Positions 12,591 to 64,000 of a DNA stretch of 64,000 nucleotides are shown here, in pieces. Below the pieces are notes generated by a model. The model was not told where the DNA came from, searched no databases, and worked only from the letters and a program-made list of their open reading frames with translations. Positions within the stretch are counted from its first letter, which is position 1, and each line of letters opens with the position of its first letter. Made by a program: the position numbers and the translations under genes. The stretch is from Halichondria panicea (lineage: Eukaryota; Porifera; Demospongiae; Suberitida; Halichondriidae), in contig NC_087378.1 of NCBI RefSeq assembly GCF_963675165.1, positions 6,071,205 to 6,135,204 of the forward strand, in the 5' to 3' direction.

Positions 12591-12656
12591 TTTAACTAAT
12601 TTCACTTTTCTGTTTTTAGAATTGTTGTTCAGATGTTTGCTGCAGCTAAAGAGCCG

Positions 12657-14029: not shown

Positions 14030-14660
14030 TCACACTCATGTTCTGACACTTGCAATTATTACGTACATGTATAGACACATAATTTTTGAGAAACTTACTG
14101 TTTGCATATTGATTAACTCTGTCACTCCAGTCTTTACGACTTCCTTCAGCTGTCCAGGTATTCTAGGGCACTATAGCGCCAATTCTAGCTATAGTTTAGA
14201 CTCTTAACGTGCTCTACAGTGTCTCTACATCAGGGGCGTTACTAGCAATGAGGCAGAGGAGGCCCTAATTGCCTCCTGTACAATTGAACTTCAAGTGTCT
14301 GTGACTCACCTCACCTTTTAATACACATGTAGCTCTGGCTAGCTAACTTCTGTATACCGTATTACTAGAATGTTTTGCAAACTTTGTGATGGTTGATCAA
14401 TTTGCAACAATAAAATCCGCAATATCTAAATTATTACTAGTAAAATACCCTTACCAGAACGCAATATTTAGATAGCAAAGGGCCACATTTTCTGCTGATT
14501 TGGCTCATTCGCAAAGGCATTCTAGTAATACCATAGATAGAAGAGAAAGAGATTGGCAGCGGAGTGCACTTCCGGTACCATCCGTGTTTCGCCTCGAGGC
14601 TTACTTCTAACGTGGGAGTCTAAACATGAATAATTCATGAGAATTGTTTTTGCCGTCTTT
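14030..14660. other. Intergenic DNA
   Basis: No gene recognised. A possible element relic begins near 14,231 (CAGGGGCGTTACTAGC). The rest looks unique. Confidence 0.4.
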
Positions 14661-14736
14661 TTCTTCGCGTAAAAAACATTAAGGATTTCACCGACTGTGC
14701 GATCCTTTACGTGATGCCATGCATCTTCTTTATAGT
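14661..14736 (-). pseudogene. 76-bp fragment of the giant Death-domain gene
   Basis: Read on the minus strand, it encodes YKEDAWHHVKDRTVGEIL, which is also found at 55,054-55,129 in the last exon of the giant gene. The DNA match is about nine in ten bases over 76 bp, with one single-base gap, and stops sharply on both sides. It is far too short to be a gene. It looks like a captured scrap of the gene (or of a paralogue), carried here by transposition or repair. Confidence 0.8.
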
Positions 14737-36023: not shown

Positions 36024-37010
36024 TTACTGAGTTGAAATGAGAGAATTCATGTGATTATAAGGAAGTGTGCGAGTGCTCAATACTGACAGAATAAGTTCGT
36101 GATGACTGAGGTCAGCAGCCTTCTCGAATGAGTTAGTGAGTGCATTAGTGTTCGCTTTGTGTCCAATCAGTACTAGGACCACTTCGATGTTGTTGAAATA
36201 TGTGGCCACATGTAGAGGAGTCCAGCCATTCTTGTCTTGAGTTTCAGTCGATATCAGATGCGATGCACATACAAGCTCTGCTAATTTTGCATAGTTCTTT
36301 GTAGCTGCTAGATGCAGTAGTGAGCAATATGGAGTATTGTTCTTTAGGAAAGTGTTCAAAGAGTGACATTCATTGTGCTTTCTGTAGTAGTCTTGAACGA
36401 GCTGGATCACAGAATCTTCACTTTCAATCGATGAATCAGCTGTGGATAATTTGGTCACTTGATTTTCTAATTCTCTTCTGAAGTGTGTCAAGTTAGCATC
36501 TAGTAGTAGTCTTGCCATTTCAATGTTCTCAGCGAGATCGATAGGTCTCTCCCCAGCCATGTTCTCTGAGTGTAACATTGTGTCAATATTTTTGCAAGAG
36601 CAGATTATCAGCTCGGCTGCTTTGTAATCGTCCATTGCAGCTGCAACATGGAGTACGTTCCAGTCTTCTGGATCACGGACTGAGACATCTGCTCCAGCAT
36701 TAATTAGCATTTGCAGGGAGTCGAGCTGCCCTTCGAAAATGGCTCTCATGACTGGAGGAAGGCCACTGGGTTCTTTTTCATTCATAGCCTCAGGTCCAAA
36801 GTCTTTCACCAATTGCTTGATTTCTTTTAGGTCTCCATTAGTGACTGCTTGCTGCATTAACACTCCTAGAGGAAAGTGTACTCCTTTCTTGGTCTTATTT
36901 TCTTTGACTGGGACCAGTGACTCAAATGTTAAGAGAACTGGGAGGCTCATTCTCCTCTTGTTCAGCCTTTCAAGGCTAATTCTTTTTGTCTTTGAGTCAG
37001 TGGAAGACAT
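36024..37010 (-). CDS. MYPT-like ankyrin-repeat protein, gene B2
   Basis: Copy B counterpart of A2, 328 codons, ending LPYNHMNSLISTQ. Distinct residues include KTKRIS at the first kinase site (RRIS has become KRIS), LLTFESLVPVKENK in the linker, KNIDTML and KLAELVCASHLISTETQD. The PP1 motif KGVHF is intact. It has an extra residue or two in the linker compared with A2. Upstream, the sequence past the TATA box (ATTGCAGTGGTCAGGAAGTA) matches genes A1 and B1, so B2 keeps the ancestral promoter flank that A2 has lost. Confidence 0.85.
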   Translation of the reverse strand: MSSTDSKTKRISLERLNKRRMSLPVLLTFESLVPVKENKTKKGVHFPLGVLMQQAVTNGDLKEIKQLVKDFGPEAMNEKEPSGLPPVMRAIFEGQLDSLQMLINAGADVSVRDPEDWNVLHVAAAMDDYKAAELIICSCKNIDTMLHSENMAGERPIDLAENIEMARLLLDANLTHFRRELENQVTKLSTADSSIESEDSVIQLVQDYYRKHNECHSLNTFLKNNTPYCSLLHLAATKNYAKLAELVCASHLISTETQDKNGWTPLHVATYFNNIEVVLVLIGHKANTNALTNSFEKAADLSHHELILSVLSTRTLPYNHMNSLISTQ

Positions 37011-41179: not shown

Positions 41180-44100
41180 ATGACGGAAGGCACATGCATA
41201 CGGTTTGTGTTGCAACTTATGTGAGAATTGGTCCCACTCGTTGTGCGCTGGTCTCTCAGAAGAAGAAGCCTATACTGCTCCATTTCGCTGCCATAATTCA
41301 GCCCGTCCATCTATCAGTAGTGCTCTCGTCAATCCACTTGTGTCTGCAATCGAGCAATTGTCAGATAAGATATCGCTCATGGAGGCCACCCAAGGGGAGG
41401 GCGTAGTACACAAAGTTTGCCTGCCCTGATGACTCAGCAATTACTTTAACGCTCCCCCATGAAGATGGCTCATCTGGAAAAGTGTAAAATTATGGGTAAA
41501 AGGAAATGGTGGTTTACCATTCTAGCTCCTCCAGAGATCCTCTCCGTGGTCGAGAACAAGTGGGACTCCCTGGATTGCCCTCCACATTGGCGGCTGCTCT
41601 CTAAGCATTCAGATCTGGCACCCGTTCACCCTCCCCTGAGAGGGGTACTGTGACTCCAGTGTCCCCCCCCCCCCCCCCAGAACAGGATACCATGCCTCCC
41701 CCAGAGCAGGTTGCCCCCTCTGAGGTCCCCAGTGAAAGGGCTATAGATCTATCTGTACTCCAGTCCTCCTCCGCTGATAACCCAGAGATTCCCCGGTCTG
41801 CCATCCCACCCGGAAAACTACCTTTTTTAGAAAGGCCCCCCCTCCCCTTCACGGAGCTAGAGAGAATGGATTAACCCCCCCTCACAACGCACCCTCCACA
41901 CAATTGAACTCTATTCTGGAATTGGCTGTTTATAATATAAGAGGCTTCAAATCAAACACTGATTATATGCTTAACAATCATGACATATTTGCTACTTCTG
42001 AGCACTGGCTCCATGCTTACTACCTCTCCTCCCTGTCAACAGATTTCTCATGCATCTCATCCTCTTCACCTATCCCGGAGGACCTGGTATGATGTCGCCC
42101 TCATTATCTAAGAGGGCAGGGAGGAGTCGCCATCCTCTACAAAATTCAGTTAAGTTTGATACCTCTCAATCGCACCGTATAGTAGGGATGCGGCTGCATA
42201 CCCAACCTCTCCCTATTTGTTTCCTTGGACCCTCTAGGTTAGGTTGCACTGATGAATTTAAGGAATGCCTTGATCACCTAGACTTGCTTATAGGTTTTGA
42301 TAACGAGGTCATTATCCTGGTGGACATAAATGCAGACCCTGGTGTCTATGAACCTCCTAACAAACAAGACAGGATACTTCGCCGATACTTCTCCGCTACC
42401 TTGCTCGGTGGAACTTCGTTTCTGTGCATCTGCACCTCGGCTCTCCACAAAACACTCACACATACGTCTGTGAGGCCATATCTACCATAGACCATATCCT
42501 CTGCCACAATCGCTTCCTGGACGCCTTGGATGAATCGCCTCTAAACACTTCTGACCACCTCCCTCTCTCAGCTAAGGTACCCTGGCAACACTGCCCATCG
42601 TAAACCGGTCCTCTGCTGGTGGCTCAGTTGTTCGGGCAAACTGGTCCAAGCTGTCCCGTTCTGAGTTGAAAGAGAGATACACAGCACCACTCGAGTTTGC
42701 TGTCAGTAAGTTGTCCTCTCCAACTGTACTAGACTCCAACCTGACAAATTTAAGGAAAGAAACATCAAGCAGAGCAAGAAAATATGCAAAACACATTCTC
42801 CCTGGCTGGTCTGCTGCACTCAAATCAGCTCACTTGGATTTAGAACTGACATTCTGTCGCTGGAAATCAGCTGGCAAGCCGCAGTCCCCAACAAACACAA
42901 ATCAAAGAAGTGCTTATTTAGAAAACTGCTCTGCGCATCATCAATCCATCAAAGAAGATTACCTCCTCAATTTCAACAAGGACTCAAAAAAGCTTTTCAG
43001 AGATATCAAAAGATTCTATGGCTCATCTTCATCTTCTAGTCCTGGTAGGATTGTATTTAGGGGCACCTCATACTCTGGTGATACCCTCCTGGATGGCTGG
43101 GCAAACTACTTCGAATCTCTTGGCACCCCCGGGCACAGCAGGCTGTTTGATAATCGTAATAATGATAAAGTAATGGGTAGCTTTCGTGCTCTTCTTGAAA
43201 CCTCCCGTGGTGGTAACATCGTGTTCACACCACTGGACATAGCCACGGCAACAAGAGAGACAAGGCCCCAGGCATTGAATCAGAACACCTATGTTTCTCT
43301 GGACCCCTAGTCCAACAAGAACTTTGTAAAATCTTTAATGCAATGCTTGCCTCCTGCCATATCCCAGAGTTGTTCACCCTAGGATTCGTCACGGCGATCC
43401 CTAAAGGGGCTGACAAAGACCTTCAGAACCCATCCAACTGCAGAGGAATCTCACTCATATCGAATGTCGGGAAACTGTTGGAGAAACTTATATTAGACAA
43501 GTTGTCAGATGATGGTATTGAGGAATCCCCTTCAGGGGGGATTCGAAGCAGGCTATAGCTCGATTTATACTGCATTCATTTTCCAAGAAGCTGTACAATC
43601 TCTCCGTGACATTGGCAATAAGGCATTCTTGGACGTAAAGAAGGCCTTTGACACTGTTTAGCGTGAGGGCCTGTTTGTTAAACTACACGATAAAGGCATT
43701 CATCCGAGAATCTGGCACCTTCTGGTCAACTTGTACACTCGCTGCTTCCTTCTAAAGGGTGAGCGGTCTCGTGTCAAACAGGGTGTTCGGCAGGGTGCAA
43801 TCCTGTCCCCACTGCTCTACTCAGTCTATGTTGACGAGCTTCTGGTTCTACTTGATGAAAGCTGCCTAGGTGCTACGGTCGGCTCGGTTCACTGTCCCTC
43901 TCCAATGTATGCAGACGATCTATCTCTCATAGCGGAGACCCCTGACAAGCTGCAATCTCTACTGGACATTGTTTCAGAGTATGCTAGTGCTTGGAGATAT
44001 GAAATTAACTCATCAAAATCTGCTATCTTAATCCGTGGGGAATCAGCAAAATCTCGCTCCTCTGGTCGCCTAACTCGATTTTTTTCGGTATGCTCTGAGA

Positions 44101-44780
44101 CAATACATGAGGCGGACAGCTACTCCCACTTAGGAATCTTGCGCCTAGTTTCAACCTCTGGCTCGATCAGAATCTCAAATCGCTGCTCTGCAGGGAGGAG
44201 TGCCTTGAATTCGGTGGTGCAAGGTTTGGCCGCCTTCATCCCCACAAACTGTACTCACCTCTCTGCCTCCCTATACGGGTCAGAGCTTTAGTCCCTCACA
44301 AAAACTGACCTAATAATGTTAGAAAGAACACACAGAACAATCCTACGTACAATTCAGGGCCTCCCTACCAGATGTCCCTCGCTAGCCTTATTGGCTCATT
44401 GGGGATCTCCTCTCTGGTATAGACTGTAGGCAACTTTGCTTTGTCAACTCTATTGCATGCATGTCAACAGACGACCTTCCTAAGAGAATACTGAAGCAAA
44501 GGCTGCTCCTGGACACCTCGATTCCAGGCCGCGAAGAGAAAGGCTAGGTCCTCCCTAGCCTCAACCCATGCATTCTTTCATATGGGAAAAGTAAAGACCC
44601 TTTCAAAGCAGCAGTGAAAAAGTCCTTCCTCATTGGACAGTAGCTATATGTCAATCTGGTGGACTCCTGCTCTCAAGTCCAGATATCATCTCATCTTGGG
44701 AAGCCCTCCCAGTTATGGTCGTACTCACTGAAAGACCCTCTAACTTCAGAATTAGACTTCTCACAGGCTGTGACCGCCTT
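41180..44780 (+). mobile_element. Decayed non-LTR retrotransposon (LINE, CR1/L2-like)
   Basis: Remnants lie in the right order. First is a PHD-like zinc finger, CCNLCENWSHSLCAGLS (about 41,190-41,320), followed by KRKWWFTI (about 41,490) and a proline-rich tail with a run of C, as in ORF1 of such elements. Next is an endonuclease start, LAVYNIRGFKSN (about 41,920), with a catalytic-type VDINADPG (about 42,325). Then a reverse transcriptase, ending with FVTAIPKG, NCRGISLISNVGKLLEK, VKKAFDTV, RQGAILSPLLYSVYVDEL and the YADD motif at 43,908-43,919. Many frameshifts and an in-frame TAG at 43,659-43,661 (where Trp is usual) show that it is dead. No terminal repeats; the ends are approximate. Host element, not a virus. 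Confidence 0.85.
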
Positions 44781-45299: not shown

Positions 45300-48200
45300 A
45301 TGGAATTCGAAGTGGAAGGTTAGCCGGTATGCAGTTTTATTTACAGCACATACTATACTCAAGCACTAGAGTTTAAGTTGTTGTTAATGATTAATTAATG
45401 TTGTGTACGTGTGTTGTCCGCATGTATAGATACAGAGCTTTCAAAGGCTGATCTGAAGGTTATATATAATGAAGTATATAATGAAAGAGCTGAGTGGAAA
45501 TTTATTGGCCTTGAGCTTAATCTCACTTCGGGAGACATTGATGCTATTGAACGGAGGCCGTCTCACAATCGTGACATTGACAAAGATCGACTCATGGAAG
45601 TTCTGCAAATTTGGCTCAGTAAAGAGAGAGCAACATGGAGACAACTGATTAGGGCCCTTCGCTCTCAAACTGTTGACAAAGAAAAAAAAGCTCGGACACT
45701 GGAGGAAAAGTATTGTCCACAAGGTAGGCCACCCACTTTAGGTTACATACTGTGTGTCTTATTTATAATGATATGCAGATGCACTCAAAACTGAGGAGGT
45801 AAAAGAGAGAACTGGAAGGAAACGAAAACGCAGTGTTGCCATGGAGCAGCAGTTGAGTAGTGATGTGAGAATCATTAGAAATGAGTATAAGGTCTTGCAA
45901 ACATGGACAAGATTATCACTAAAAAATAGAAAGACGCCTCCTTCAGAGCTGATTGCCCGTCTATCATCATATCGAGAGTATCCTGCTGCAATGAAGAAAG
46001 ATGATAAGTTGCTTGCTGATCGTTATAATGATCTCGAGAAAGCTGAGAATATCGACAAAATATTTATAATTGTGGCACCGTTCTGGTCATTCCTTGATTT
46101 TGACATTCTTGAGGACATCATCAACGCCTTTGGAATAGATGAAGATAAACTTAAGTTGAAGAATTATAAGCTTAAGCTCAAAGAGATTCTCAGTTCCTGG
46201 AAAGTTGAATCACTTCAAAGTCGTTGTCTGCATGTAGATGCTGATGATAATGATGACAAGGGGTGTCAAAGATTACTTTGCCTTAAAGTAGACACTCATA
46301 CAATGTCTACTTACCGATACGTAAAGGATACCATTGCAAATATTTTAGAAGTAGATATGTTTGCTTTGCGAGTGAAAACAGTTGAAGAGGGTTGTATCAA
46401 ATTGGTTTTCTGCTGTCCTAAACTGTCCATTATACATTTGCTTCCTCTATCGCAAAGTCGCAACGATCAGATAAAACAAATAATTCCTCGGATCCTTAAG
46501 ATGACGACAATGGATGATAAGACAGCGCTGGAATCAATCATTTTTCAGGTAACTATTTTGCATCATTTGAGTGTGTCTCTTGTGGGGGAAAGTACATATT
46601 TACGTGTCCTAAGCTGCTCAGCTTGTTTTAGACATTAAATTGAAAATTGAAAGCATAATCTATCTATATCAGTTTGTACTAACCTAATACGGGGTTTTCC
46701 CAGGGAATTTCTGCATTGGTTTATTATCTATGCATGGTGGGTAGATATAATAACTCAATAATTGGCCTGGACCTTATCATGTGACCTCAAATGACATCAA
46801 TGCACTGAATTTGCAGTCATTCTTGTACGCATGTCCAGTCCTCCAGTTATAGGTTGTAATTAGGGCTTTAGATTTTTCACGTATTTCACTCATTTACATA
46901 TCCGCAAGAAAAGCCCAGATCTGGAAACTGACTGCACAGCTTGTTTATTACCCCGTGCTGCGTGTGCGTGTGCGTGTGCGTGCACGTGCGCGCACTGAAT
47001 GAAGGATTGGTATGTGTGTGACTGACACTGTCAGTTTGTGTGTGTGTGTGGACACAAAAGTGAGCTGTTTGAGCGAACTAGACACTTTCATAGACTGCTT
47101 TAACTTTTAATGAGACAGTGGGTGAAAAATATTAGGCCGTATAGCGTGAAATTTTCGAGGGGCTTAATTTTCGCGGATTTCATGGGTTAGAATTCTACAC
47201 GAAAATTAAGCCCACGAAAATTGTTCTTTAATAAGAATTACCTGCTATAGAACATGCAAAGATTTAAAGGCGTGGCTTCCGGTAAGCAGTCATTCCGCGA
47301 ACATTGTGCAACAAAATGGCTTTTAGAGGCCAATCCGCGAAATATATAAGTGCCTCGAAAATTTCGCACTATACGGTAGTTCAAAAAGCGAAAAAAAACA
47401 CTGTTTTGTTGTTTTATAGATTCACGATTATTCCCCCATAATGTTAAGGTCATTGCGGTAAAAGTTATCGTATCAGTTCATCCAGTGCAATATATGGCAT
47501 GTTGCACGAGGGCGCCTGCAATAACTAACTTATTGCCCAATGACGACTCGTCTGACTGGTCATATAAGGTGTTTTGAAGGAATTTAGTGTATTCGTTAGT
47601 TTGTTGAATTCCATAGTAAATTTTTAGGTTTTCTTATACCATAAAAGTAGTAGCCTATAAAAGGGACCAAATGAAGGTGGGATGGTGGGGCATAAGTCCC
47701 AACTGGATATCTCTTATGGTTACGGTCAACGGTTTACTCATTAATTATTCATGAGCTAGATCTAGTGATCTTTTCCAGCTAGAATGAGCTGGAAGTCCAG
47801 CTGAAACGCAGTAGTCATTTCATGGCTCGAATAGACATTTTTACTATAAAGCTTAGGGTACAGTCTACTGTAGCTTCACTATATGCAGGGTGGGTCGAAG
47901 AGATATTTCGAAAAAAGGCTACTGAAAGCTCACAAGAGGCTGTTTTCCTTGGCTCTGGCCGCCATTTTAAGTGGAGTTAAGTCTACATATTATTATTTTG
48001 TGAGAGTTTGTTGGCCTGGAAAGAAAAAAACGCTTCGACCCGCCCTCCAGAATGGTAAGAAGCATCATATAAGAGCAAGAACACAGAGCTAGAAGTGTTT
48101 TTAGAAGTTTAAATGACTACTAGTTTTGTGTTGTTTCTAGTAACTTAATGATCGCTCAGAGCTTCCACTGGAAAATGTTTTGAAGATTGATACTTGTCAT

Positions 48201-51200
48201 ACAGGATAATACACCAATATATTTATCATGTGTGTGCTTTAAATTTTTATCATGGCATTTATAGTTTCACAAAAATCATTATAAGAAAATCATGAATATT
48301 CATGAGCAAACTGTTTACCGCAACCTTAAAGAAATCTACTGCATTTACACACAGTGCAAGTGCATATACCGTATAGAGGGTATATTTCGAGGGTATAAAT
48401 GTTCGTGGTTTTCGCGGATTAGGCATGAACCGCAAACATTTATGAATTTAATATTTCATGCATGCATGCTGCAAAAAAGGCGCTATTCCATGAAAATTAA
48501 ATCCGCGAAAACCTTTCTAAAGGCACATCCGCGAAAATTTATACCCTCGAAATATACCCGCTATACGGTAATCCAGTGCATTAGTGCCATATAATGCAGT
48601 GCAATATATGGTAGCCATGGCAGTGATGCAACATGCCATATACTGAGCACTCACTGGGCAACAATAATCAAACAAATGTTCACATGCATGAATATTGTCA
48701 CGCATTTTGTCTGTCTGACTGACTGAGTAAATAACGTACATTCTGCAAAGTAACAGTTGACCATGGGTGTGGCTGTGACATGCTGATTTAGTGCAGTTTT
48801 ACAAGTTTGAAACCTCTTTTCTTCAGAATTCCATTGTTGTCAGTTATAATTATGCTAATGCTATAACCATAGGCTTCCATACACTTGCAACACTATATAT
48901 ACACCTCCCTTATACTGCTCTTCAGGGTAGATCAGATTCTGTGTACCTGGCAGGGGGGTTAGTAGAAAGGGGCAAAGCTCCGTACGAGGGTGGCGGAGGC
49001 GAAATTTCTTAGCTTTTTACAATTTGCTCACAATTTGACCTTTGAACTTTCATATTAATGAGTGAATATATACTGAATACGAAAAAGTTAATACAAAAAA
49101 CTCGTTCTAATCAACAAAAGGATTGTATACTGTATAGATGTTATATGTAGATTCATGCACTCTTGGTACATTGAAAGAATCACAATGCCTGCACTGAGAG
49201 TGAGAGGAGGTAAGGCTGCTTCCTTGCAGCTAGCTGAAAAAGTCTGAGATCTACTCCATGTTGCAGCAGCATGCACAATAGCCTTCACAAGGCCTAGGAA
49301 GAGAGGTCTGGGATCGAGGCTACAAAACATTGCACAAGGAGCTGACTCAGCAACAGCAATAGTTGACCTATGCACTTTAAATTAGTATGTAAGTCTACCG
49401 TAAGACCTCGATTTAAAGCGACACTTTTTAATAATTACGAAGCCAGAGGTCGCTTCTTTAAATTTGGAGGTTGAAAAATTATATTGAAGTCCTGGTGTCG
49501 CATATTTAGAGGGTCGCTAGAGGTAACTTTACAGAGTCCTTGCCTCGATTTCAGGCCGCTTAAAAACACAGTGGGCTACAATCGAGGCTAGGGAGTGGCT
49601 ACATTTACCTCTATTTAGAACGCAACATTAAAAAATAATTGTCAACGCAGCTGTCGCTACTTTTAGAGGTCAGAAAATTGCTGAAGCTCCTGGGTGTCGT
49701 ATATTTGGAGGGTCGCCTTAAATCGAGGTCTTACGGTAGCTAGCTTAGTAGATCCAGCTAGCTAGCTAGCCTAGATCCTTATACTCTTAGTAGCTATACC
49801 TGGCTGTTGTCTAGCATCTCTTAAGTCAGTGAGTCTACATGCAAATGCATAAGTAACAAGGTTGGTGGCAAAATTGTTGTAACCTCAGACTAGCAATACA
49901 TAGGCAAAAAGGGGGGGGCTTCAGCCCCTCAAAACCAGCCCCTGGATCCGCCCGCGCCCCTGCCTGGTTCTCATCATTCTATCGACCAACAGAAATCAGC
50001 AACATAATAAAGGATCGTTCCTTGCCTCTAAAAAAGTTTCTTGAAAGTGATTGCTTCTTGAAGTTCCCCTACTCTGCAAACAAAGGGGATCTTTCCAAAT
50101 AGAATGTGAAAATTACTACGATTGGCCATGGAAAGCACTAAAAACATCATTCCTTACAACGTCATCAACACAACATCAGCACATTTACCATCAATATAAT
50201 ATAATATATTAATAGACAGTTTATTGTCTATAAACCAGCTTAAAAACTGCACCATAATTATACTCATTGTTTTACACGTAAATGAAGTTGTAACGATTTG
50301 ACGTACGGCTCTCTCTCGCGCTTGCTTATGTCCATGCTTTTTGGTGCTTTCCCGTTGGTAATTGTCACATGTAAATGCATGTGTTTTTGGACTTATCATA
50401 ATATATTTCTATGTACGTTTTGTACATGCAGTGATATATACTGTGTATTTGAAGGGACAGTTCAGAATGCGTATGAGACCTATTTATACCACATGCAGAT
50501 TTTTTTTTATCTTCTGTAATGCATTGTGTTTATATGAATACAGGGATCAGAAATTGAATTGCTGCTGCATATTGTTGATGGTGACTGTGGCTTGACTATC
50601 CTTGTACAGCATGGTGAGCAGTCACAGAAGTATTAAAATGTTTATGACCACATTATGCCTCGATGTGCATGTGCAAGCGAGGTATACGGTAGTGTGTGTG
50701 TGTGTGTGTGTGCACGCGCACGCGCTCAATGATCAATGAAGTGCAAGTGAGAGGCTTCTAGTCATGTTTTCTTGGATTTTAATTCGTGCAATTGCAAAAT
50801 AATGCTTGGTTCTCGAGTTATGCTAGTTTTGCTTACTTGAAATTGCATTGCAGCCTTTTCAGACGTAGAAAAACTTGTCCATGGAGTGTTGCTACTCAAT
50901 TTAGTAGTTAGATCCAGTGGCGGATCCAGGGGGAGATCCCAGGGTGCCACGGATCCCCCTTTTCAGACTAAGCTATTGTGGCTTTACTATATACAGCTAC
51001 CAGCTAGCTATTTATCAGTTTTGTAGCTATTGTAATTTGATTCAATGATTGTACCTGTTGTTCTGATGCATCAACTGCCAAAGGAGTGTTTAGGTTAGCC
51101 TAGGTTAGCTAGTTGACTGTTCTTGGCAGCTAGCTAGCTCTAGCTAGCTCTACGCTAGCCTCGAGACCAGGCCGATTAAAATACGTATTTTAATCGGCCT

Positions 51201-54200
51201 GGATTCGAGGCTAGCTCTACGCAAGTCTATTATGGGATTTCCCCTGGCTGAGTATGGGATTTTCCCTAGTCACGTGTGACCGGAAGTGGGCATTACCCCA
51301 AAAATTTCGCGCTGCACGCTCGTAGTTTGGAACCCCCCTTTCATTTTTCCTGGGTCCGCCACTGAGATCTGCACTAGAATGCTAGCTATTTATAGCTGGC
51401 CTGCAAGAGTGAGAAGAAAGCTGCAAATGCGCTGATGCAGCCATTAATTTTAGACTTGGACTTTTGGCATCGGTCGTTTTTAACAACAATCATGGTCGAT
51501 CATTACCCACTCTCTGTAATTGTGGAGTGCTAATTAATGCAAAAAATGTTCATCACGATAGTCACTTTGTGTGTATAAAAGCTATTAGTAGCTTTATGTT
51601 ATGTAGCTTTGACACTTCCACCGGGATATCAGCACCTGCGATACTTTCATTATTTTCAGGGTCAGATTAAATAGGTCAAGTCCACGCTATTCAGAGATCC
51701 AAAGGCCTGAGGCTCTCTGAATAGCATGGCCCTAGGGACTATTGGCTGAGGCCTATGTAACGAAAGCACTATGGAGCCCCATAGTGTCGAGCCATAGTTC
51801 TGCGTTTACAGCATGGATAGCCTTCACACAACAAGTTATTAGTTTTTAACAATGGCAGATTTTGATGTTAAAGCTTCATGCGTCCTTTTCTCGAGGTACA
51901 TATTTACAGCTGAAGTGATCCTGTACCAGGAACGATGGAATTTCATTTCTCATGTTACTTGCTACTTAGCCAGCTTCTCCATGCTTCATACATACTACTA
52001 TTTTATTGTATTCAAGTAAACAGCCGAAAGTTAGCACTTCAGTACTCTAGTAATTATAGCTGAGAAACCGCAACTCAAAGCAAAAGGTTGATATAGGTGT
52101 AGTATACAAACTTAAAGAGAAATTACGTGAGGACGTCATCAAAATAATGCGCAGTGCTTGGGCCTCCATCTGGCCTATGTATTACTGTATTCTACTGAGA
52201 TTACACCCACCTTAATTGCATGCTACAAAGCAGCTACAGGTGGGATGGGCTTAATTTCGAAAACAGTAGTTTTGTCTTGAAATTAAGCCCACCCACCGCC
52301 TCGAAGTTACACCCACTCATTACAAAACTAAGTCTGCATCCATCAATATAGTATTACAACAATACAATAAAGTATAGCTAGGGTACAAACAAGTCATGAG
52401 TCTCACTGTCAGAGTTTTCAACTTGTCTCTTATACTTGCATGCAAATATAGGAGCAATATACTTATTGATAGCTATATTCAGAACTAACCAGCTTACACA
52501 AGAAATTGCTAAATCTTTTCTTGACAACTGCTCATTGACAAATGCATCACTGCCTGCCTGGTGGGCGTATTAATGCAGGCCGGAGCTTTCACTGGGGTGG
52601 GCGTAATTTCGGACGTGCATGGGCCTATCTATTCTCGGTAGAGTAGTAGTCTCAATCTTTTTGCAGTAACATCGACTGTTGCCATCTTTTTTAGTAGTCT
52701 CAGTACGATCGTGTGCGAGGTTTGTATGGCCTACTTAGAAGAACTCTAACATTGACAGGTTGCAGCTAGTATATTTAGACCTTCCAGTGACCAATCTCGT
52801 TGCTTATGATGAATTGAGACTTGCTATTGTGACTTAATGTAGACCTGATACTATATACCTTAGGTGACATATTTTTGCGGATATTAATTTCTGCTATTTC
52901 TGCTAAAATCATGTACTTGCAGATAATTTGAAAATTCAATGAATCTCATTAAAACTACTTGCGAATACAATATAACATTAATTTCGTAACTTAAGCAGAA
53001 TTTAGTACCAGCGAAATGAGCTAAACAGTGAAATTGCAGACAAATCTACCTGTGAAAATATGTCACCCTAAGATAATTATATAGTTATGTTATATTAATT
53101 ATGATCGTAGTAGATGGTGATCATCCATGCAAATATTATTTATCAACATGCAGGTCAAAATCTATTTGTTTATGATACGGGATATAGAACAACTAACCAC
53201 AGCAACTGCCTGGAAAAGGCACTCCAGGAGCTAATTGAATTCCGGTCCGTTACTGTTAGTGGGGCTTTCTTTTCAACTTCACAGCCTAACCTCAAATCCA
53301 TCTTCAAAAACAAAGTTATTGAGGAGATATCAGTTATTACCCCTGCAAACATTAATCCTAGTTCATGCCTCGAGAGTACATTTAGTTCAGAATTGAGTCG
53401 ACTCCCACTAGATCATCCTGACGTCTTATTTGAAGAGTGTGACCTTCTTTCTGGACCGAGTCTTTCTTTCCAATTCAATAGGAAACATCCCTTAGTAAAA
53501 CATCGGGTATCGTATCAAACAGACACGGGTGACAAGGAGGGAGTGTCCGACACAATAGATGTGGACAGGAGTGGAAATGATATAGCAATGCAGATCAAAC
53601 ACTATTGCTCTGTTCTTGTCACCGGTGAAACACCGATAGCTAAACTTCACAATCTAGATGAAGAGTTTTTCAGTGTTTTCGTAGTTCCGCATCAAGACAG
53701 TGACCAGTGTGTATCATTCTTTCCTGAAGAAGCACGGAAGTTACTATGGAACCCCAGTTCTCTGCAAGATTCAGCTCTACACCTAGCCATTTATCATAAA
53801 AGAAATAGATTTATCCCAATATTAGGCGAACTCAAAAATAAACACCTTGGTGATAAGGGAGAATCCTTTCGTAAAGACTATCTAACTATATGTCATCCTG
53901 AAACTGACCTAAAGGCAATCTTACAAGATGCAGACGCCAAACTTAGTCTATTTTCAGAGTACAGTGACAAGTTCTATTTAAATTGGTACAAAAAAAACAA
54001 ACCTGGGATTTTTTTACAGGTAGCAAAGTCTGTTTCAGAAGAGGAGCGTAGACAGTACAAACGAATAGTTTTTCTTCGAAACAGCCTTGCATGGGCCCAT
54101 TTTTACAAGCATGTGAATGCCGAGGTATATTTGTTGTCTGGTGAGGATCTTAGGCAAGGTCATCAATTGGAAGTTCTTAACGGTATTCTCATAGCCAGAT

Positions 54201-57200
54201 TTTGGAAAAAAGCTCCTTGTTCAGTGGTTATCACTGACAGCTTGCCATTGCCAATGGATGAAATCATCCAGAGAGATGTGCGAAAGCTTGTCTTTCCCAA
54301 TCAAACTCAGCATAATGTACGTATGGGATTCATTGAAAAACGTTTGATGAGGTCTACTCCTTTCTTCACTATCAATCCATGCTCCCATGTCCAACATTAT
54401 GAATCAGAATACTGTGACTACACCATTTCTGTCGACCCCTTGGCTCACATAGTGAGTGGTGTCGGCGTTGAACCAACGATAAACCTTGTTAGAGATGCGA
54501 TAGACATTTGTGATGACATCAGCACCCAAAAATCCAATGAGATGGTAGGCCATATCACTTATAGCTACAAACCTCCACCATCAAGTGCAGCTTCAAGTGG
54601 GCATATTAATCGTCAACCCTTGGGTACATACATGAATGGTATTGGTTACAAAAAGAAGCATTCTTATAATATGACTAAAGTCTTAAACTGCCTCATTGGC
54701 CCTACATTAGTTCAGCAACTCAGGAAAATTCGTTTGAAAGAAGTACCTGAACTTATTCCAGCCTTGCTTACTCAAACGGCAGCTGGTAACTCAACGTTTG
54801 CTTTATCTCCCACTGAATTTTCTGCCTCTGATGCGGATGTTGTGGTTCATATTAATAAGCGCCAGCCACTACAAGTTGGAAATAAGGCAGTGTATGAAGC
54901 AAAATTTATTGTGAAAAAAGCTAAGACAATGCAACTGGAGTTTGTGTTAGTAGCTAAAGTCAATTCCAAAGAGTTGAAAATTATCATTTCTACAAACTTA
55001 GAACTGAAGGGAACCTGTGGAACCTCTGTAGGTGATTACCTTTATAACACTTGCTATAAAGAAGATGCATGGCATCATGTAAAGGATCGCACAGTTGGTG
55101 AAATCCTCTATGTCTTTTTACGCGAAGAAAACGCTATCTCAGCAATTCAGTCTCTACCACTGTTCCTCTCGTCCCCCCTGATTAAGTGCAAGATAAACCA
55201 CTATCTAACCACAGTTCTTGTCGAGTCACAGGTGCTGCAAGAGGCTCATATATATGTGAACTTGTTTGAGCTTGAACCAGTCTCTATCAACAACCACAAG
55301 CTTTGCATTAAGATAGAATCACTAGCCATGCATATTTTAAAGCTTGACATAGATCAACAAATGATCAAAGTCGAAGGAAATTGCAGTTTAAACAAACACC
55401 TCCTGAAATTCACTTGCTATAGTACGCCAGCTACAGACTCACAAAAGCATCTGAAATGTGTTTTTGTTGAAACCATGCCAGCGAAGGAGATGTTTGAACT
55501 GTTTGGAATCCGTGATTCTCCCTCTTCCCTGCAACATCCTTCACATGTAACTGCTCTGAATAATCACACCAAATACAGTGGAGGCTTTGTACTGTCTCAG
55601 ATTTTCGGGAACACAATCGAGTCACGGCTCACTTCATTGTTTTTTTATGTTAAATCCGGAACAAGCATTGAAAGCGTACTGCCACCCACGTGTACCCTAA
55701 GTATTCCTATGGAGGTTGAAGTAAAGACAATTGTACATTTCCCATCAGCAAAAACTCCAATATTAGGGCTTGAAGCTGTGTTCAATTCAGAAATTGATAT
55801 AGCTATTTTTACTGCTGCAAAAACATGTAAAACCTTGTTAAAATGCTGTTTACATATCGTACCATCAATTGCGGATGGAACTTACTCTTCAGAGTTAGTG
55901 GTTAGACAGCGTGTCAGTGAACGTGATCCACAAGAAATCTGTGGCTTTTCAGTTCTAGCAATTGTGTCAGCTCTTGATAGTGATCTGGGAAAGAATATTG
56001 AAGACCAGATCAAGGCGATTCCCAAAATTGGTGACCAGGTTTGCAAAACCTTGGCACTCAGAAAGATTGTATTTAAGCTATCGAATCGGCAAATAATACT
56101 TTGTGAGGTACATGGTTCTCTAAGTAAACTTGATATCATAGATGGAACGCTATCTATTGATAAGTGTACAATAAACCTATCATTTTCAAGTGAAGGATTG
56201 TGTATAGTTTGCAGTGGGAATATAAAGCTAATCAAGCAATACGTTTACTCAGTTCCTCGGTTTAGTTTTCCAACACTCAAGCAAAAAGGAAAATTGAGCT
56301 TTGAAACTTACGATAGTAACTTGATCTTCAAAGATTTCATGAAGGAATTTGGCTGGCTTACTCCAAGTGTCACAAAAAACCTGGTTCTGGATAAGATTCT
56401 GGACACTCCTATCAGAAAAGTAATTTTGTGCTTTTATTTTACTGACAAACTTTGCATTACAGATGCCAGTATTAGTGTCTTCAAGAAACAAATAGATGTT
56501 GGACTGATCGAATTAGATGGTGTTGACCTAGAAGTCATTGTAAAGCTTGTGGAGGATAAGTACATCACCACATTTTCTCTTCAAGGTTTTATTTCTGAAG
56601 CTCTTTATACTAAACTAGACTATGATCCCACCAATAAACTTCTGTCAGGACAAGTAAAAGTGATATTTGCTAGGACTGTTCAAGCTCTCAGTGTGCTACA
56701 ACTATTTTCAACGTCTATAGATTCGTATCAGAACATGAAGAAGGCTCTTTCAGAGGAATTCATGGATATATTGTCATCAGACTTAAGAATCACTGCAAGA
56801 AACCATGAGAAACCAGGGCTTACAGCTTCTCTTGGTGTCAGTATTAGTCTACCTTCTAAGCATTTAAGAGAATACTCGCTTCGATATCTCAATTTAGAGA
56901 CAAAAGACGCACTGAAAATTAATTGTGAAAGCACGTATGTCCTGAACAATTTTCATTTTGAGTACACTGAGGAGCTAACAAGTAAAGATTCTCCTTCAGA
57001 TGCTCATCTTTCTATGACACTCCACAAGCTCAATACCGAGGAGAATATGTCTTTGTATTTTAATTTCTCGGAAAAAATTTACTTGACAGCAAAAGTGGCT
57101 GCTGGACCTTGCGGCGGCCTCTTAAAATTATGTTCTGCTATTGACTTTGCCCAAGCCCCTACTCCAGAGTTTCCTGAGTTTGATGTGAGATTACCTGCTG

Positions 57201-60200
57201 TATTTGAAATTGAATTAATGTCTGGCTTAATTACATTCAGAAAACAGCCCAGTTTTCAGCCTGCTGCATTTAATATTAACATCTTGATTAAGGAATGGCT
57301 ATTGTTTGCCGAACCAGAAGTTTTAGTGCACGATATCAGTCTGAAGGCAACATGGGAATCTGGTAGTCGCTCCCAACTCAGTTTCACAGACTGTTCTTTG
57401 ATATTTCTTAGTCATAAATTCATCCTCAGTGGCAGTCTAACAACTAAAGATGTCTTTATTAAAGGACATTGCACTGCAGATTCTGAAACACAGTCCCCAA
57501 CTCAACTTCAGCACATACTAGATAGGTACACTCCTTTGTCCGCAAAAAAACCCTTTGTTCCAACTAACATTGATTTGCCTCCCATGCTGGTTGAACTTAA
57601 GAAGTTAATTATTCATATTCAAGAACCAAGTGAACAGTTTTGTATGATTATGGTAGTGATGAGTCCTTCTTGGAAACTGCAGTTTGGCCCTTATGAAATC
57701 CCTGTTTGTGATCTCAGTGGAACTTTAGAGTGGGAAAAATTGGATACTAGGACAAACTACAAAGCCTACATTGATGGTATTGCTGAGCTGTTTAGTATTC
57801 AAGTTGATGTAAAAATGCTGCTTGAGGAGGAAGACAAGGACTCCATAGTTTTCTCTACAGTCGAGTATCCACACTGCCTTCATTACAGTCAAGCCATTGA
57901 CCATTTACTGGGCATCAAAGATTCAGCTGAAATAATTCCATACAACCAATATGATCCCAGTACCTCAGGCCTGTCAGAGTTGGTTCCCTCTACAATGCAG
58001 AGCATATGTTTCACAGAAGCTAAAGTTGCCTTTAATCTCGTACAAAAACAGTTCTTTATCAGCAGTAAAGTGGAGGGATGGGGAACTGGGTCCATTTTCA
58101 TGGGCTATCTTATCAGTGACACGGACTCTATAGACTATGTCGCTAGTTTGTCCCTTGAGAGTGACGTCTCATTTGGCAGGTTATCTGAATCTTTAACTTT
58201 TGTTGACGAATTGGTAAAGTTGCAAACAGCAAACGCACTTGTTTCTTCTGCTGAATTTGGCCATTTATCAGACATTACCACCAAATTCCACCATTCGTTT
58301 TCTAGGTCTTGGGTCAAAGAGCTCCTTCTTCAGTTGCCTTTCTATGAATCCAAGCTTGAATGTGAATTAAAACTAGCAGAGTATGAAGTTCAGGTTGGGA
58401 CAACGATCTATGCAAGCATTGATATTAACCTGTCACAAGGAATCATTACCAGATTGTTACAGCTTGGAGATACATCAGTGCCACATAGCCTTTCAATTGT
58501 GACATTTATTGGTCAATCAACAACTAAAACAGATATCAATATCAATGCTTGGATTCCTAGAATTTTACTGTTTGGAATGCTCGAATTCTCTGATATTCAT
58601 TTGCTGTATAGAGTTAAGGCTGCCACTAAGTTTGAGCTCACAGGGGCAGTTGCTCTTAATGTTAACCTTGATGACACTGACGATCAGATATTTAAATTTG
58701 ATGGTACACTTTCTGTTAATCCTGATCATGCTGAATTCAGTACTGTGAGCTATGGCAATTCCTTATCTCACCCCTGTCGAATCAATGTTGTGGCAAAAGA
58801 ACTACATCTTGCACTCAAACTGTACCTAAATAAAGGATACCCGAATTTGTATGTGAGAGGGAAGGTGGAAATTGCCGAAACGAAGCTCACCTGTATATTC
58901 ATTTTTGTTGGTATTGTTTTCAAAGTGTTCAAAATTTCCTTGAAACAAGGTCTAAAACTCTCTGCTCTACTCAGCTGCTGCTCCATTGAATGGCCTCTTA
59001 GCCTAGATATTGTCCTAAAAAAAGGAAAGTTCTACTATGCTGCTTCACAAATCACTTTAGATGAAGATGGAGTAACATCTGCTTATGAGCGTGGTTACCG
59101 TATAGAAGCGACTGTCACATTTTTCAAACTTGATTTTGAAATACAAAATGGTATTGTAATGTTTGATGAACACAATGTTATTTTTGATGCAAGGGCCAAA
59201 AGAACAATTAATCTTGATTTTGCAAAACTAACCGGGGAACAAGAGGATCACCTTGAAAGTGAAGAAATTAAACGAAAGTATGAAGTTGAACACAGACATA
59301 AGGGTCCCCTTTTATCATATAAACAGAAAACCCTTGTCTTAACTCACGGATTAGAAATTCTTGATATTCCTTGCTGCGATGGTCAATTAAAGTGTATGCC
59401 TGGAAGTGGGACAATGAAAGGTGAAATCAAATGCCCGAAATTTCTTTGGATTAGTGAACCTTTGATTCAGCTAGAATGGAGCCAAAGCAATGGGTTACAT
59501 ATACTAGAGTTACAACTTAATGGAGATGTCCCAGGGTTTTCTTTGCTTAAATCAATTGAAGATGTTGCTAAAGTCACTGCAAACAGTCTTTCAGGTAAGT
59601 TGTTATGGAATTGGAAGCTCTGCTTGAAAACGTGTAATTACAACAAGCAAGAAGAATGTCTAGTTCGTTTCATCCTATCTGGCGTTATCAAGATCTCTAT
59701 CATAGGGTTGCTCGAAGAAATAACATTTAATGTGCCAGATATGTTCATCTCCTTGCCCAGGATTTCAATCGAAGGCTTCCCTATGTCATACTTACTTGGT
59801 CAGTATATCTTAAAAGCTTTGAAGAATAACAGTGGCCACTTTATTGAACCATTACTGGCTTTAATTGACGAAGCAAAGCATTTTTCCAAGTCATTTACAT
59901 CGATACGGGAGAGTATTAAGGGGACAAATGAGATATTGGACATTGTAACGAAAAAAGTAGACACAGTTTCAACAGACGATACTGAAACAGACAATACGCA
60001 AAAAGGCGCTTTTGGGAATAACAAGGTTTGGAGAGGAATGTGGAGTGTCCCTGGTGGCTCAGTATTTATTGTGGATTTTGTAAATAGAATTGTACTTGGT
60101 TATATTCCTGGAGGAACAGCAGGAAACTCCAAAACTAAGGCAGAAAAGTCTACGCCAGAGCAATACATTATAGAGGAATTCGGACCCATTGTGACAGTTA

Positions 60201-62935
60201 ATGCAATTAGTAGTATGGCACATGAGATTCACAAGTATCTCAAGTCTTGTGTTGATGCTCAAGAATATAAAACTGAAGAACAACAAGAGGCGAGTGATGT
60301 CAAGCAGAAAATAGAGAATGATTTGGCAGTGCTAAAATCGAAAGCGAATACTCTTTCAAAGACTCTGACCATTGTAGCTGACAATGTATTGACTGTGACA
60401 GATGTTTACTTGAGTGTCATTGTGAAAGCTCAAAACAAATGTGCTATCGTAATGACGTGGTTTACTTACAACCCTGAAGAAGGTACCTTTTATACCAAAG
60501 ACAAAGGAGGCATTGAGTATGATGTGGAGATTTCTGCCATTACCATCCAACCTCGTACCTCTCAAGTTGTTCTTCTACGCAATGACACCTTCACTCTTAA
60601 AGATGTAAAGCATATGACAAAAAAATCGTCTTATAGTATGCTTCAATCAGGCATGGAACACTTTACTGAACAAAGTAAGGATTCAGACGCTGCTAGCAAG
60701 CAAAAACAGAGTACTAGGTCCAAGCCAGAGAAATGCATACAACTAGTGATTCCTATTAAGCCCAAAGTTTTGGAGCAAACAGTGTGCTTTAATGTTGGCA
60801 TTCAACCAAAAGTAAAATTTAAAGTGAAGATGTTACAACCTGATAAAATAGTTCAAAATGCTTTTAAAAAAGATGAACTGTTTAGTAATACATGGATGAA
60901 GGACACTAAGAAGCAAATTGAGGCAAGTGGTCGATTAACAGATGTTACGATTGAAGGAAAAAAGGTGTCTAAGCAACATATAATCAACAAAGATTCTGAG
61001 TCTGAAGTAGTTACATTTACAGCTAAATGTGACCACAAGAAGGAGAGCTTAAAAGTTTCAGGTACTTTAAATCCAGTACATAGCGCAGCATCGTATATAG
61101 TACAATTAGTGGATGAAACTGACTCAACAGTCATTGTCAAGCAGAGTCGCGTGTTTCCTCCCCAACTAAAGTACCAACTTGAACCATCGAGCACTCACTT
61201 TCCAGAAACTTCCTCTGGTCCATACTGTGTTTCTGCTCTTGCTCTTAGTGATAAGCACAAAGCATTATCTCCTTTCACAGTCTCAGAATTGAGGATAGTC
61301 CGGCATGATCCACCTGAAATTCTGACTGTTACACTACCCAAATTGGATTTGTTCGATACAGAAGTTGTCCTGTTGAAATGGTTGTATCCATCATCAGAGG
61401 TAAGTCTTATAGATGGATCTCAGTTAATATTTCCGGAGCCTGGAAATCAGTATTTCTTCACCGTCACCATAGTTGGCTTTGCGGTAAAGCCGCGAAAACT
61501 GAACGAAGAGGTTAAAAATCTTGACAAACGTAAAAAAGAGTTTACATTCTCTGAAAAGGTGAATTTATGTAAGGATACTCGATGGGTTAAATATCAATTT
61601 AACTTAGTCGATATCCTTAAAAAGTATAGCCCCAAACTAAAAGGTGGACTTATATTTCAATGCCAAATAGTAGCTAATGGTATTTCAAAACTTCAAAGTA
61701 TGCCAAAGTCTTTCCCGGAGTTTATCTTGCTTGCACCTCCAAAATACTTGAAAGTTTTGACTCGTACACAAAAAGCTGGACTTCATATTAGCTGGGAATA
61801 TGGTGCTCATGCTATTGGCTACAGATTAGAGTTAGTAACTACAAAGTCTCAAAAGTTGGAGTTCTCTAAAGTGCTGAAATGTAGAGCTGGAAGGAATGGT
61901 CAAACTGTTCTCTACAAAAATGATTTCATGAATGTTCCTACTAGTGTTGATAATGGTTACCAGTTGCAAATGTATTCTCTTGGATTGGGTCAAGACCTCA
62001 TTCGGTGCCTAAAACCCACCATTGCAGAAGGATATACATTACATGTAATGTCAGCAGAGCTTCATTACTTGCAGGAGTTGAACAAAGTGCGAGTTACATT
62101 TAAGCCATTGAATACTAGCACAGCTCGGTTATACACTGTAGAATTATACCAAGGCTTAAATGTTACGGATGAGCTATGTGCTCTGTCAATTGAAAAAGTC
62201 GAGGCTAAAAAGGGCTTTAATAATGAAATTTCTTCAGATTTTGCTCTCAGCAAGTTTCATCAAAAGCTGCATTCAGGAAGTCTGATCACAGCTTGGATTC
62301 ATTGCACGATTAAACCTTTTGGTAGAAAGACTCACATATACGTTGGATTACCACAAGAAGAGATACTTGTGTTACACTCCCCAAAGCTTAAAGCTTCATT
62401 TACCTACCACTCTGATGGTTCTATACATGAAATGAAGCTTGTCTGGTCAGATGTACCAGGGTCTCATGGATATGAGTATGGGCTTTGTCTCCTAAATGTA
62501 AATGATAGCATTATCTTAAAGCAAGAAACAGATGCCATTAAAGTTGTCATTGACTTTGCCCAGGAAAGGTACAGATGCATACTAGAACAGCTTTTGCGTA
62601 AAAGCAATGGTTCTTGTCCACAATTTCGAGGTTACGTATCAGCTCTTGGACAACCTGACCAATTAGTAGTAGGAGCTGTTACCATAGATGTGCAAATGAT
62701 TAACTACATAATTCCTTCTTCGGGAAGGTGTATTGTCTTCACAACAACTCAACTACAGAAAATGTGGACCTGGTACACTACCCATCCTGTTGATCATGTT
62801 TTTTCCTTACCCATATTACGACAACAGTATCTTATGTATCCTAGTGGAAACCCGTTTCCAAAGATTCCAATCCCGTCAAAGCTCAACGAAAAGTTTTGGA
62901 GAAGAGGATACCAGCTGTTCCAAAATGGTATATAG
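45300..62935 (+). CDS. Giant Death-domain protein, five-exon model
   Basis: Exons 45,300-45,318, 45,430-45,723, 45,779-46,548, 50,544-50,613 and 53,154-62,935. All four introns start GT and end AG, and codon phases match at every junction (1, 1, 0, 1). The total is 10,935 coding bases: 3,644 residues plus stop. Residues 8-90 are a Death domain (KFIGLELNLTSGDIDAIE, LQIWLSKERATWRQLIRALR, then EEKYC), a homotypic adaptor module of immune and cell-death signalling. Residues 207-219 (WSFLDFDILEDII) and about 270-320 (DMFALRVKTVEEGCIKLVF) are two modules that commonly follow Death domains in sponge proteins. Everything after residue 385 comes from one exon and is not recognised. There is no signal peptide, so a cytoplasmic location is likely. 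The exon 3 to exon 4 and exon 4 to exon 5 links rest on splice sites and phase only; extra small exons could exist in the long introns. Confidence 0.75.
45430..45723 (+). CDS. Death-domain exon (exon 2)
   Basis: 98 codons entered in phase 1 after the exon 1 peptide MEFEVE. It contains a complete six-helix-like Death domain with the conserved core (GLELNLTSGDIDAIE) and the WRQLIRALRS helix, ending KYCPQ before the donor AG|GTAGGC. The intron after it is 55 bp, a size usual in sponges. Without the first exon the open frame begins only with intron codons, so the spliced start at 45,300 (ATGGAATTC) is preferred. Confidence 0.8.
45779..46548 (+). CDS. Exon 3, Death-associated modules
   Basis: Begins after the acceptor ATATGCAG and ends at CAG|GTAACT. 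A basic stretch (KERTGRKRKRS) could be a nuclear signal. It is followed by a helical segment, the WSFLDFDILEDII module and a beta/alpha module with SVEEGC-like VEEGCIKLVF. If the donor is not used, the frame runs on to a stop at 46,638 and gives a short Death-domain protein of about 390 residues, a plausible alternative product. Confidence 0.75.
47136..47378. mobile_element. TA-flanked miniature element in intron 3
   Basis: The ends CCGTATAGCGTGAAATTTTC and GAAAATTTCGCACTATACGG are near-perfect inverted copies; the right end is followed by TA. Interior inverted pieces include GGGCTTAATTTTCG and CGAAAATTAAGCCC. Non-coding. Confidence 0.85.
48367..48570. mobile_element. TA-flanked miniature element, best-preserved copy
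   Basis: 204 bp. TACCGTATAGAGGGTATATT continuing TCGAGGGTATAAAT, against ATTTATACCCTCGAAATATA continuing CCCGCTATACGGTA: about 35-38 bp inverted ends. It is the type example for the copies at 1, 1,970, 24,020, 26,008, 47,136 and 63,042. Confidence 0.9.
49279..49322. mobile_element. Short palindromic element in intron 3
   Basis: TAGCCTTCACAAGGCCT..GGTCTGGGATCGAGGCTA, 44 bp. It belongs to the TAGCCTCGA family by its ends. No clear 9-bp duplication. Confidence 0.55.
49396..49738. mobile_element. Miniature element with ACCTCGATTTAAAG ends
   Basis: TACCGTAAGACCTCGATTTA at the left and TAAATCGAGGTCTTACGGTA at the right, 343 bp. Further inverted parts (AGAGGTCGCT and TCGCTACTTTTAGAGG). A short TAGCCTCGA-type palindrome is nested at 49,540-49,590. 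Confidence 0.85.
49540..49590. mobile_element. Short palindromic element nested in a miniature element
   Basis: TTGCCTCGATTTCAGGCCG..TGGGCTACAATCGAGGCTA, inside 49,396-49,738. It interrupts the host element, so it arrived later. Confidence 0.6.
50544..50613 (+). CDS. Exon 4, small linking exon
   Basis: 70 bp between a strong polypyrimidine tract plus AG (TTTTTTTTTATCTTCTG.. ATACAG) and the donor ATG|GTGAGC. It encodes GSEIELLLHIVDGDCG and then LTILVQH, and enters in phase 0 and leaves in phase 1. That is what exon 3 and the AG at 53,152-53,153 require, so the joined reading becomes ..VQHGQNLFVYDTG. Confidence 0.65.
50915..51364. mobile_element. CAGTGGCGGATCCAGG element with 5-bp target duplication
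   Basis: The ends CAGTGGCGGATCCAGG and CCTGGGTCCGCCACTG are flanked by AGATC (50,910-50,914 and 51,365-51,369). The uninterrupted copy at 13,430-13,450 shows a matching empty site (TTAGCTCTGCACTAG). It holds the hairpin element at 51,156. Confidence 0.8.
51156..51213. mobile_element. 58-bp hairpin element, type copy with exact 9-bp target duplication
   Basis: TAGCCTCGAGACCAGGCCG, centre ATTAAAATACGTATTTTAAT, CGGCCTGGATTCGAGGCTA: almost a perfect palindrome. GCTCTACGC stands directly on both sides (51,147-51,155 and 51,214-51,222). A 9-bp duplication suits Mutator-type transposases. Confidence 0.9.
51656..52858. other. Rest of intron 4
   Basis: No exon recognised. A palindrome GGGCTTAATTTCGA..TTGAAATTAAGCCC lies at about 52,247-52,289. 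Several GGTGGGCGTAATTTCG-type fragments suggest old relatives of the TA-flanked elements. Confidence 0.4.
52859..53072. mobile_element. Miniature element just upstream of the giant exon
   Basis: CTTAGGTGACATATTTTTGC at the left and GTGAAAATATGTCACCCTAAG at the right, inverted with one extra base. About 214 bp, ending 80 bp before the giant exon. Confidence 0.7.
53154..62935 (+). CDS. Giant last exon, about 3,260 residues of unrecognised beta-rich protein
   Basis: A single uninterrupted frame of 9,782 bp. An in-frame ATG exists at 53,114, but the acceptor CAACATGCAG|GT at 53,153 makes those codons intron. Much of the protein alternates hydrophobic strands in loose modules, for example TTFSLQGFI..TKLDYDPTNKLLSGQV and KFELTGAVALNVNL..KFDGTLSVNPDHAEF. 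A helical, charged stretch lies near 60,280-60,380 (ASDVKQKIENDLAVLKSKA). Near the C terminus are fibronectin-III-like strands (LHISWEYGAHAIGYRLEL at about 61,780; MKLVWSDVPGSHGYEYGL at about 62,430). No enzyme motif, signal peptide or clear membrane helix was seen. From memory only, the strand modules recall large repeat proteins of bacteria and fungi (DUF6603-type); this is unverified. The stop at 62,933-62,935 is TAG. Confidence 0.85.
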
Positions 62936-63750: not shown

Positions 63751-64000
63751 AATCGGATTGTCTCTATGCACGAGATGTCTTAATGGTGAATGGTCTAACG
63801 ACATCCAAAAAGTCTCTAATGGAGTGGAAGAAAATTGACCCATTTGCAAAGCCATTTGGAACTGTTACCCGAAAAAAGATTGAATACAAAAAGGACAATC
63901 TTGAATGCTTTGGTGTTAGTGAATTACGTATTTTACTATATACAAGGTTGGTAACTATGAAAAAAGTTTGCCGTAGATTTTATCTTCTTTTATTACCACC
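63751..64000 (+). CDS. Possible partial exon of the next gene
   Basis: After the acceptor TTATACAG the frame is open to the window end. It reads SDCLYARDVLMVNGLTTSKK and goes on with WKKIDPFAKPFGTVTRKKIEY. A donor AAG|GTTGGT lies at 63,946. The composition looks like real protein, but I do not recognise it and the rest lies outside the window. Confidence 0.4.

Follow-up and report, generated by a model that had tools for sequence, protein, structure and literature searches.

A sponge Death-domain gene whose giant C-terminus appears to join a degenerate metallo-beta-lactamase domain to a beta-rich body

Death/TRADD-N proteins and the gene structure of LOC135331030

Lineage-specific proteins that combine a Death or DED domain with a TRADD-N domain are known in sponges, molluscs and lancelets (Kaur et al. 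2021, PMC8195603). The parts of that paper drawn on here count 357 proteins of the Death/TRADD-N type in Amphimedon, present both domains as adaptor parts in apoptosis and immunity, and give most architectural types an N-terminal Death-like plus TRADD-N unit with a variable C-terminus (ankyrin, SH3-LRR, kinase, caspase, HD and others). For the related DEDD2 clade they propose retrotransposition as the source of such fusions. The gene analysed here, LOC135331030 of the sponge Halichondria panicea, is annotated as "uncharacterized protein" and lies in a stretch of 64,000 nucleotides (contig NC_087378.1, positions 6,071,205 to 6,135,204, forward strand; the window). Like the proteins described in those parts, it has an N-terminal Death domain, then what is probably a domain of the RRM-like TRADD-N type, within a sponge expansion and ahead of a variable C-terminus; unlike them, it ends in what appears to be a degenerate metallo-beta-lactamase (MBL) domain and a body about 2,700 residues long. 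Neither MBL nor lactamase is mentioned in the main text of PMC8195603, and a Death plus TRADD-N unit carrying this C-terminus was not found in the literature searched. The sequence-only reading of this DNA, made before our analysis, had called the architecture unfamiliar; this holds for the MBL-body C-terminus, which is the new part, whereas the N-terminal unit is of an already published kind. A Death head on a long sensor body also recalls the sponge NLRs with an N-terminal DEATH domain (NLRD), as presented in the portion of PMC12909245 used here, but unlike them the giant protein has no NACHT or LRR (Pfam, E up to 1).

The full gene model comprises eight exons on the plus strand (19, 294, 770, 70, 9,774, 196, 77 and 683 bp) and 3,960 residues, with 7/7 introns GT-AG and in fitting phases. 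The NCBI-predicted isoform X2 of the locus (3,899 aa; P0001) is 100% identical to the window frame and matches residues 62-3,960 of the model exactly. Exon 1 (45300..45318) is a mini-exon, MEFEVE(D), with donor GTTAGC, and lies outside P0001. It is the probable start, judged by resemblance to paralogous loci: by eye, a short ATG exon ending GAA G/GTT in the same phase is present at three of the eight inspected (L007, L009, L014), and a fourth (L008) has a similar mini-exon. Exon 2 (45430..45723) encodes the Death domain and exon 3 (45779..46548) a helical part and the TRADD-N-like domain; exon 3 has the donor CAG/GTAACT in phase 0, and exon 4 (50544..50613) also opens in phase 0, on the far side of the longest intron (intron 3, 4.0 kb). 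Exon 5 (53154..62927) lies in an open frame of 3,273 codons (53,114-62,935) with its own ATG at 53,114. It is followed by exon 6 (63751..63946) and, beyond the window, by exons 7 (64,006-64,082) and 8 (64,179-64,861, ending with the stop), all three placed by mapping P0001. The protein would thus run from the Death domain through a helical linker, the TRADD-N-like domain, the degenerate MBL domain and the long beta-rich body to a C-terminus that by eye looks low in complexity.

The sequence-only reading had joined Death-domain exons at 45.3-46.5 kb to the 3,273-codon frame through the 70-bp exon 4. The frame is real, as stop-free frames reach at most 205 codons when the window is shuffled 20 times by mononucleotide, and exon 4 joins the two parts with fitting splice signals and phases and is present in P0001. 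The 3,644 residues are correct for the chain as drawn, and its residues 62-3,642 (3,581 residues from Met62) are identical to P0001; the two ends differ, with P0001 beginning at Met62 and leaving the frame at 62,927. Exon 5 was wrongly taken as the last exon: at its donor AATG/GTATAT the frame is left eight bases short of 62,935, where the stop codon ends, so that the donor and stop (62928..62935) are intronic, are skipped by P0001 and are followed by exons 6-8 to about 64,861.

The Death domain is well supported (PF00531, E 3.6e-7, above the cut-off, about 45,483-45,665), as the earlier reading had it, and was recovered again (E 5.8e-5) when we searched the sponge's own genome, a 131-Mb assembly of 39 contigs. 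That genome holds at least 148 Death places (150 of 503 candidates scored) and at least 113 matches to the 255-residue piece of exon 3. Thus the Death plus exon-3 unit belongs to a large expansion, whereas the giant body has one full copy. Ten exon-3 matches (E 3e-30 or better, 41-45% identity) cluster at C4:6.32-6.43 Mb, and in 10/10 of these loci a Death match lies ahead of the exon-3 domain. The genes of this cluster (L006-L014, L017) are of the Death plus TRADD-N-like kind, and the three downstream stretches inspected hold short frames only.

The second half of exon 3 (about 46,255-46,530) is predicted, with low confidence (block means 41-64), to fold in the order beta-alpha-beta-beta-alpha-beta. 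In an alignment of 16 of the 113 places, all 16 rows carry Gly-Cys (11) or Gly-Ser (5) in the beta2-beta3 turn, between predicted strands 197-202 and 207-212; in the window this G-C lies at about 46,390-46,395. According to the parts of PMC8195603 used here, a tiny residue plus Ser (or Cys) occupies the same turn of TRADD-N. The Pfam model PF20694 (TRADD-like_N) matches three of the 16 rows (best 0.0029) and has eight weak matches genome-wide at E up to 1, seven of them inside exon-3-domain places, while PF13820 matches nowhere, controls included. With fair though incomplete confidence, we take this half to be TRADD-N.

A probable metallo-beta-lactamase domain with most metal ligands replaced

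Residues 362 to about 750 of the giant protein, encoded by exon 4 and the start of exon 5 (main part 53154..54247), align motif by motif with MBL domains. By eye, exon 4 (GSEIELLLHIVDGDCGLTILVQH), with the first strands, lines up with HPINVGQGDAILLE..., a piece of MBL genes in which the same intron follows. At the start of the domain HPINVGQGDA of the MBLs corresponds to LHIVDGDCG, and LIDGG to VYDTG; in the metal motifs THPDxDH has become FSTSQPN, TGDS has become TGETP and VPHHGS has become VPHQDS; and the last motif, HPHSEVITGIL (HPHxEV), reads GHQLEVLNGIL (GHQLEV). The window protein therefore lacks the metal-binding H-x-[HD]-x-D-H, D and H motifs; one His of VPHH is left, and some relatives retain a second.

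The MBLs used for comparison come from the sponge itself and from a family of giant proteins, P0012-P0021. The MBL part of P0012 matches 16 own-genome places, 15 at C4:5.33-5.59 Mb and one on C13; eight of these loci were fetched, and five of the eight were made into a profile. It matches the N-termini of 11/11 members of the giant family (the window protein, P0002-P0010 and P0022; P0011, which starts inside the body, was excluded) with E-values from 1e-11 to 8e-6 (2.5e-8 for the window protein), against 0.11 for the best of 231 decoys (shuffled or reversed sequences; all MBL profile E-values refer to sets of about 220-240 sequences). A second profile, from all ten MBLs of the P0012 family, also matches 11/11 (3e-7 to 2e-3), with the window protein weakest at 2e-3 and the best of 231 decoys at 0.22. 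In the reverse search the giant family finds 10/10 MBLs of the P0012 family with E-values of 6e-8 to 8e-4 (0.15 for the best of 210 decoys), and the hhalign score of the alignment is 64, versus a best of 26 among 30 column-shuffled controls.

Gene structure gives a second line of evidence. Exons 4 and 5 are separated by a phase-1 intron just before the LIDGG strand, and by eye the same intron lies within one residue in 5/5 own-genome MBL loci that show both of its sides (L037, L038, L040, L041, L042); its acceptor is shared by 7/7 loci that have one, among the eight fetched. Since this intron is shared with the MBLs, exon 4 is tied to exon 5, and both to MBLs, independently of the annotation. 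Derivation of residues 362-750 from an MBL domain is supported by the profiles and the shared intron. The domain is probably, though not certainly, inactive, because most metal ligands are replaced; inactivity is likely rather than shown, because some rows of the giant family keep a single His.

The own-genome MBLs that keep their metal motifs resemble bacterial defence proteins. The five tested match the PADLOC model of LmuA at 1.4e-9 to 2.7e-17 and that of Avs1a down to 6e-11. Models of bacterial LmuA, AVAST Avs1a and RT-associated MBL match own-genome MBLs to which the domain of the giant is homologous; unlike Lamassu LmuA and AVAST Avs1a, the giant itself lacks most metal ligands and matches none of the family models (0 PADLOC families at E up to 1 for the window frame, which contains exon 5 but lacks exon 4). 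In Amphimedon, metallo-beta-lactamase is listed in the part of PMC4784904 used here among the common domains of genes presumed to derive from prokaryotes. In H. panicea the LmuA/Avs1a-like genes with kept metal motifs are L036-L043 (C4:5.33-5.59 Mb and C13), and in L040 an OTU-like protease domain apparently follows the MBL, by eye.

The beta-rich body, its giant relatives and its neighbours

Exon 5 was described by the sequence-only reading as encoding an unknown beta-rich giant. No Pfam family matches its frame, but the first ~390 residues appear to be MBL-derived and the body has relatives. Ten relatives of the frame share 44-57% identity with it, and the frame must have been long maintained, because eight of them cover 72-99% of it and two more 50-63%. 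Further away stand P0012-P0021, ten proteins of 4,068-4,773 residues (nine from ENA, one from JGI), to which the body, from residue about 870 to 3,554, aligns over 2,396 columns (profile-profile, E 2e-112; body and homologous C-terminal part at 54608..62660). Part of the comparisons with this family used four of its ten proteins. The giant shares with them the body, an N-terminal MBL and a long uninterrupted frame. In contrast to it, they keep H-x-x-x-D-H, NGD and HHGS at the N-terminus (10/10) and carry Jacalin lectin domains (precomputed in 10/10), whereas Pfam finds no Jacalin in the giant; their identity to the window protein is about 20%, and Pfam scans of three of the ten show no Death domain. 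Nothing on the combination of MBL, beta body and Jacalin was found in the literature searched.

AlphaFold2, run on the first 1,200 residues of exon 5 with 14 sequences, gave a model with a mean pLDDT of 59 and a pTM of 0.42; over residues 481-1,170, 48 of 69 ten-residue blocks reach 70 or more. The share of the body folded in this way is about its first quarter, and its predicted structure (54,611-56,665) has long antiparallel strands with short helices between them. Foldseek and VIA-align with the predicted model gave no meaningful solved (PDB) relative.

The protein might instead act directly, either as an MBL that hydrolyses with a reduced site or as a lipid-transfer channel formed by the body, with the Death head only regulating it. 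The long antiparallel strands interrupted by short helices would fit such a channel, as they presumably resemble lipid-transfer repeats, and hydrolysis could draw on the single histidines that survive in the giant family and on the three metal motifs kept throughout the P0012 family. No chain of a bridge-like lipid transfer protein is present among the structure matches shown for the first quarter of the body, and we consider direct action unlikely.

Two own-genome searches each found one full copy of the body plus one relic. One relic lies in the window on the minus strand (14546..14734; tblastn E 4e-8, 44% identity to model residues 1,019-1,089). Another, at about 5081-6271 of locus L004 and 15 kb downstream of the gene, partly duplicates the C-terminal exons and the end of exon 5 at about 71-85% identity; it adjoins open frames that by eye resemble a retroelement. 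A retro-copied giant might have been inserted near a Death gene as a recent, useless chimaera that is now decaying, a reading to which 9.8 kb without introns, the relic copies of body parts and a fragment of a reverse transcriptase lying 1 kb 5' of the Death gene (43731-44291, plus strand, PF00078 E 6.8e-15) would all lend themselves. It is hard to square with 3,273 uninterrupted codons, kept for long given the relatives at 44-57% identity, and we regard it as very improbable.

Elsewhere in the window, upstream of the giant, a repeated family of four ankyrin-repeat frames of 328-330 codons occupies the minus strand (9613-10599, 11613-12605, 34164-35150 and 36024-37010; Ank_2, Pfam, E 6e-21 to 1.4e-24), and a piece of a cytochrome P450 lies at 17248-18105 on the plus strand (PF00067, E 8.4e-31).

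A possible sensor or scaffold and its origin

A Death/TRADD-N end joined to a long beta body and a hydrolase fold whose metal site is mostly gone is most simply read as a sensor or scaffold. We lean, by a modest measure, towards the view that it derives from a giant of the effector type with MBL and body, in which catalysis was lost and a Death plus TRADD-N head was gained. The body and the degenerate MBL fold would bind a ligand or partner, and Death and TRADD-N would pass the signal on by oligomerising and recruiting downstream adaptors. The ancestor would have been an effector-type giant with MBL and body as in the P0012 family, and the head may have been taken from the large Death/TRADD-N family of the H. 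panicea genome. The body would have come first, with a live enzyme, and catalysis would have been lost when the signalling head was added; this order is suggested by how the giant compares with the MBL-body-Jacalin family. The gene structure and the homologies have support; the function, including a cytosolic location, an immune role and inactivity, we infer. The proposal of the sequence-only reading, a protein of the sponge innate-immune type, is supported by the public gene model, the conserved MBL intron between exons 4 and 5 and the large Death plus exon-3 family, with the immune function itself still inferential.

Several points weigh against the sensor or scaffold reading. For the head, PF20694 does not match the window protein and no own-genome match reaches its cut-off, and block means reach only 41-64 where the predicted model covers TRADD-N. 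For the MBL domain, the profile alignments are strong over a single segment of 51-54 columns, the Pfam MBL models give no match at E up to 1 to the window frame or P0001 (Lactamase_B stays below the cut-off even in the five own-genome MBLs and P0012), and the predicted model of this part is poor (block means 24-62). A single His is moreover kept in some rows of the giant family: FSHSQP in P0003, VPHHES in P0004 and VPHQ in most. Finally, P0001 is a predicted isoform ("X2") starting at Met62, so that its Death domain is cut, and the join of exons 3 and 4 across the 4-kb intron is drawn from P0001 and the splice sites, not from homology; the relatives P0002-P0011 and P0022 are unspliced frames, and for this reason the fusion is not shown in any other species.

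These last points bear on a simpler account, that prediction error has fused two adjacent genes, a Death plus TRADD-N gene at 45.3-46.6 kb and a separate MBL-derived giant whose start would be the ATG at 53,114 or an exon upstream of 50,544. The relatives of exons 2-3 on C4 lack the giant body, with short frames only in the three stretches downstream of them, the intron in question is the longest of the gene, the model that spans it is a predicted one, and exon 5 could use its own ATG. However, P0001 joins both parts, the phases of exons 3 and 4 fit (0/0), and if translation began at 53,114, exon 4 would be lost; this exon completes the start of the MBL domain and shares the MBL intron. We judge two genes to be improbable here and retain the single sensor or scaffold gene.

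A wider scenario, which we put forward only tentatively, is that sponges hold MBLs related to anti-phage effectors, some of them built into giants with beta body and lectin, and that one such giant turned receptor, its enzyme silenced and Death plus TRADD-N attached. Own-genome MBLs with kept metal motifs and the P0012 family offer ready controls. If that scenario is true, a dead defence enzyme of bacterial type, on a new kind of beta scaffold, would serve an animal immune sensor of H. panicea as its sensing part. The giant would be a concrete case of an effector enzyme turned pseudo-enzyme sensor, and would bring together three subjects that are mostly treated separately: the Death-domain signalling of animals, the MBL anti-phage effectors of bacteria, and a giant beta-rich family whose fold is not recognised.
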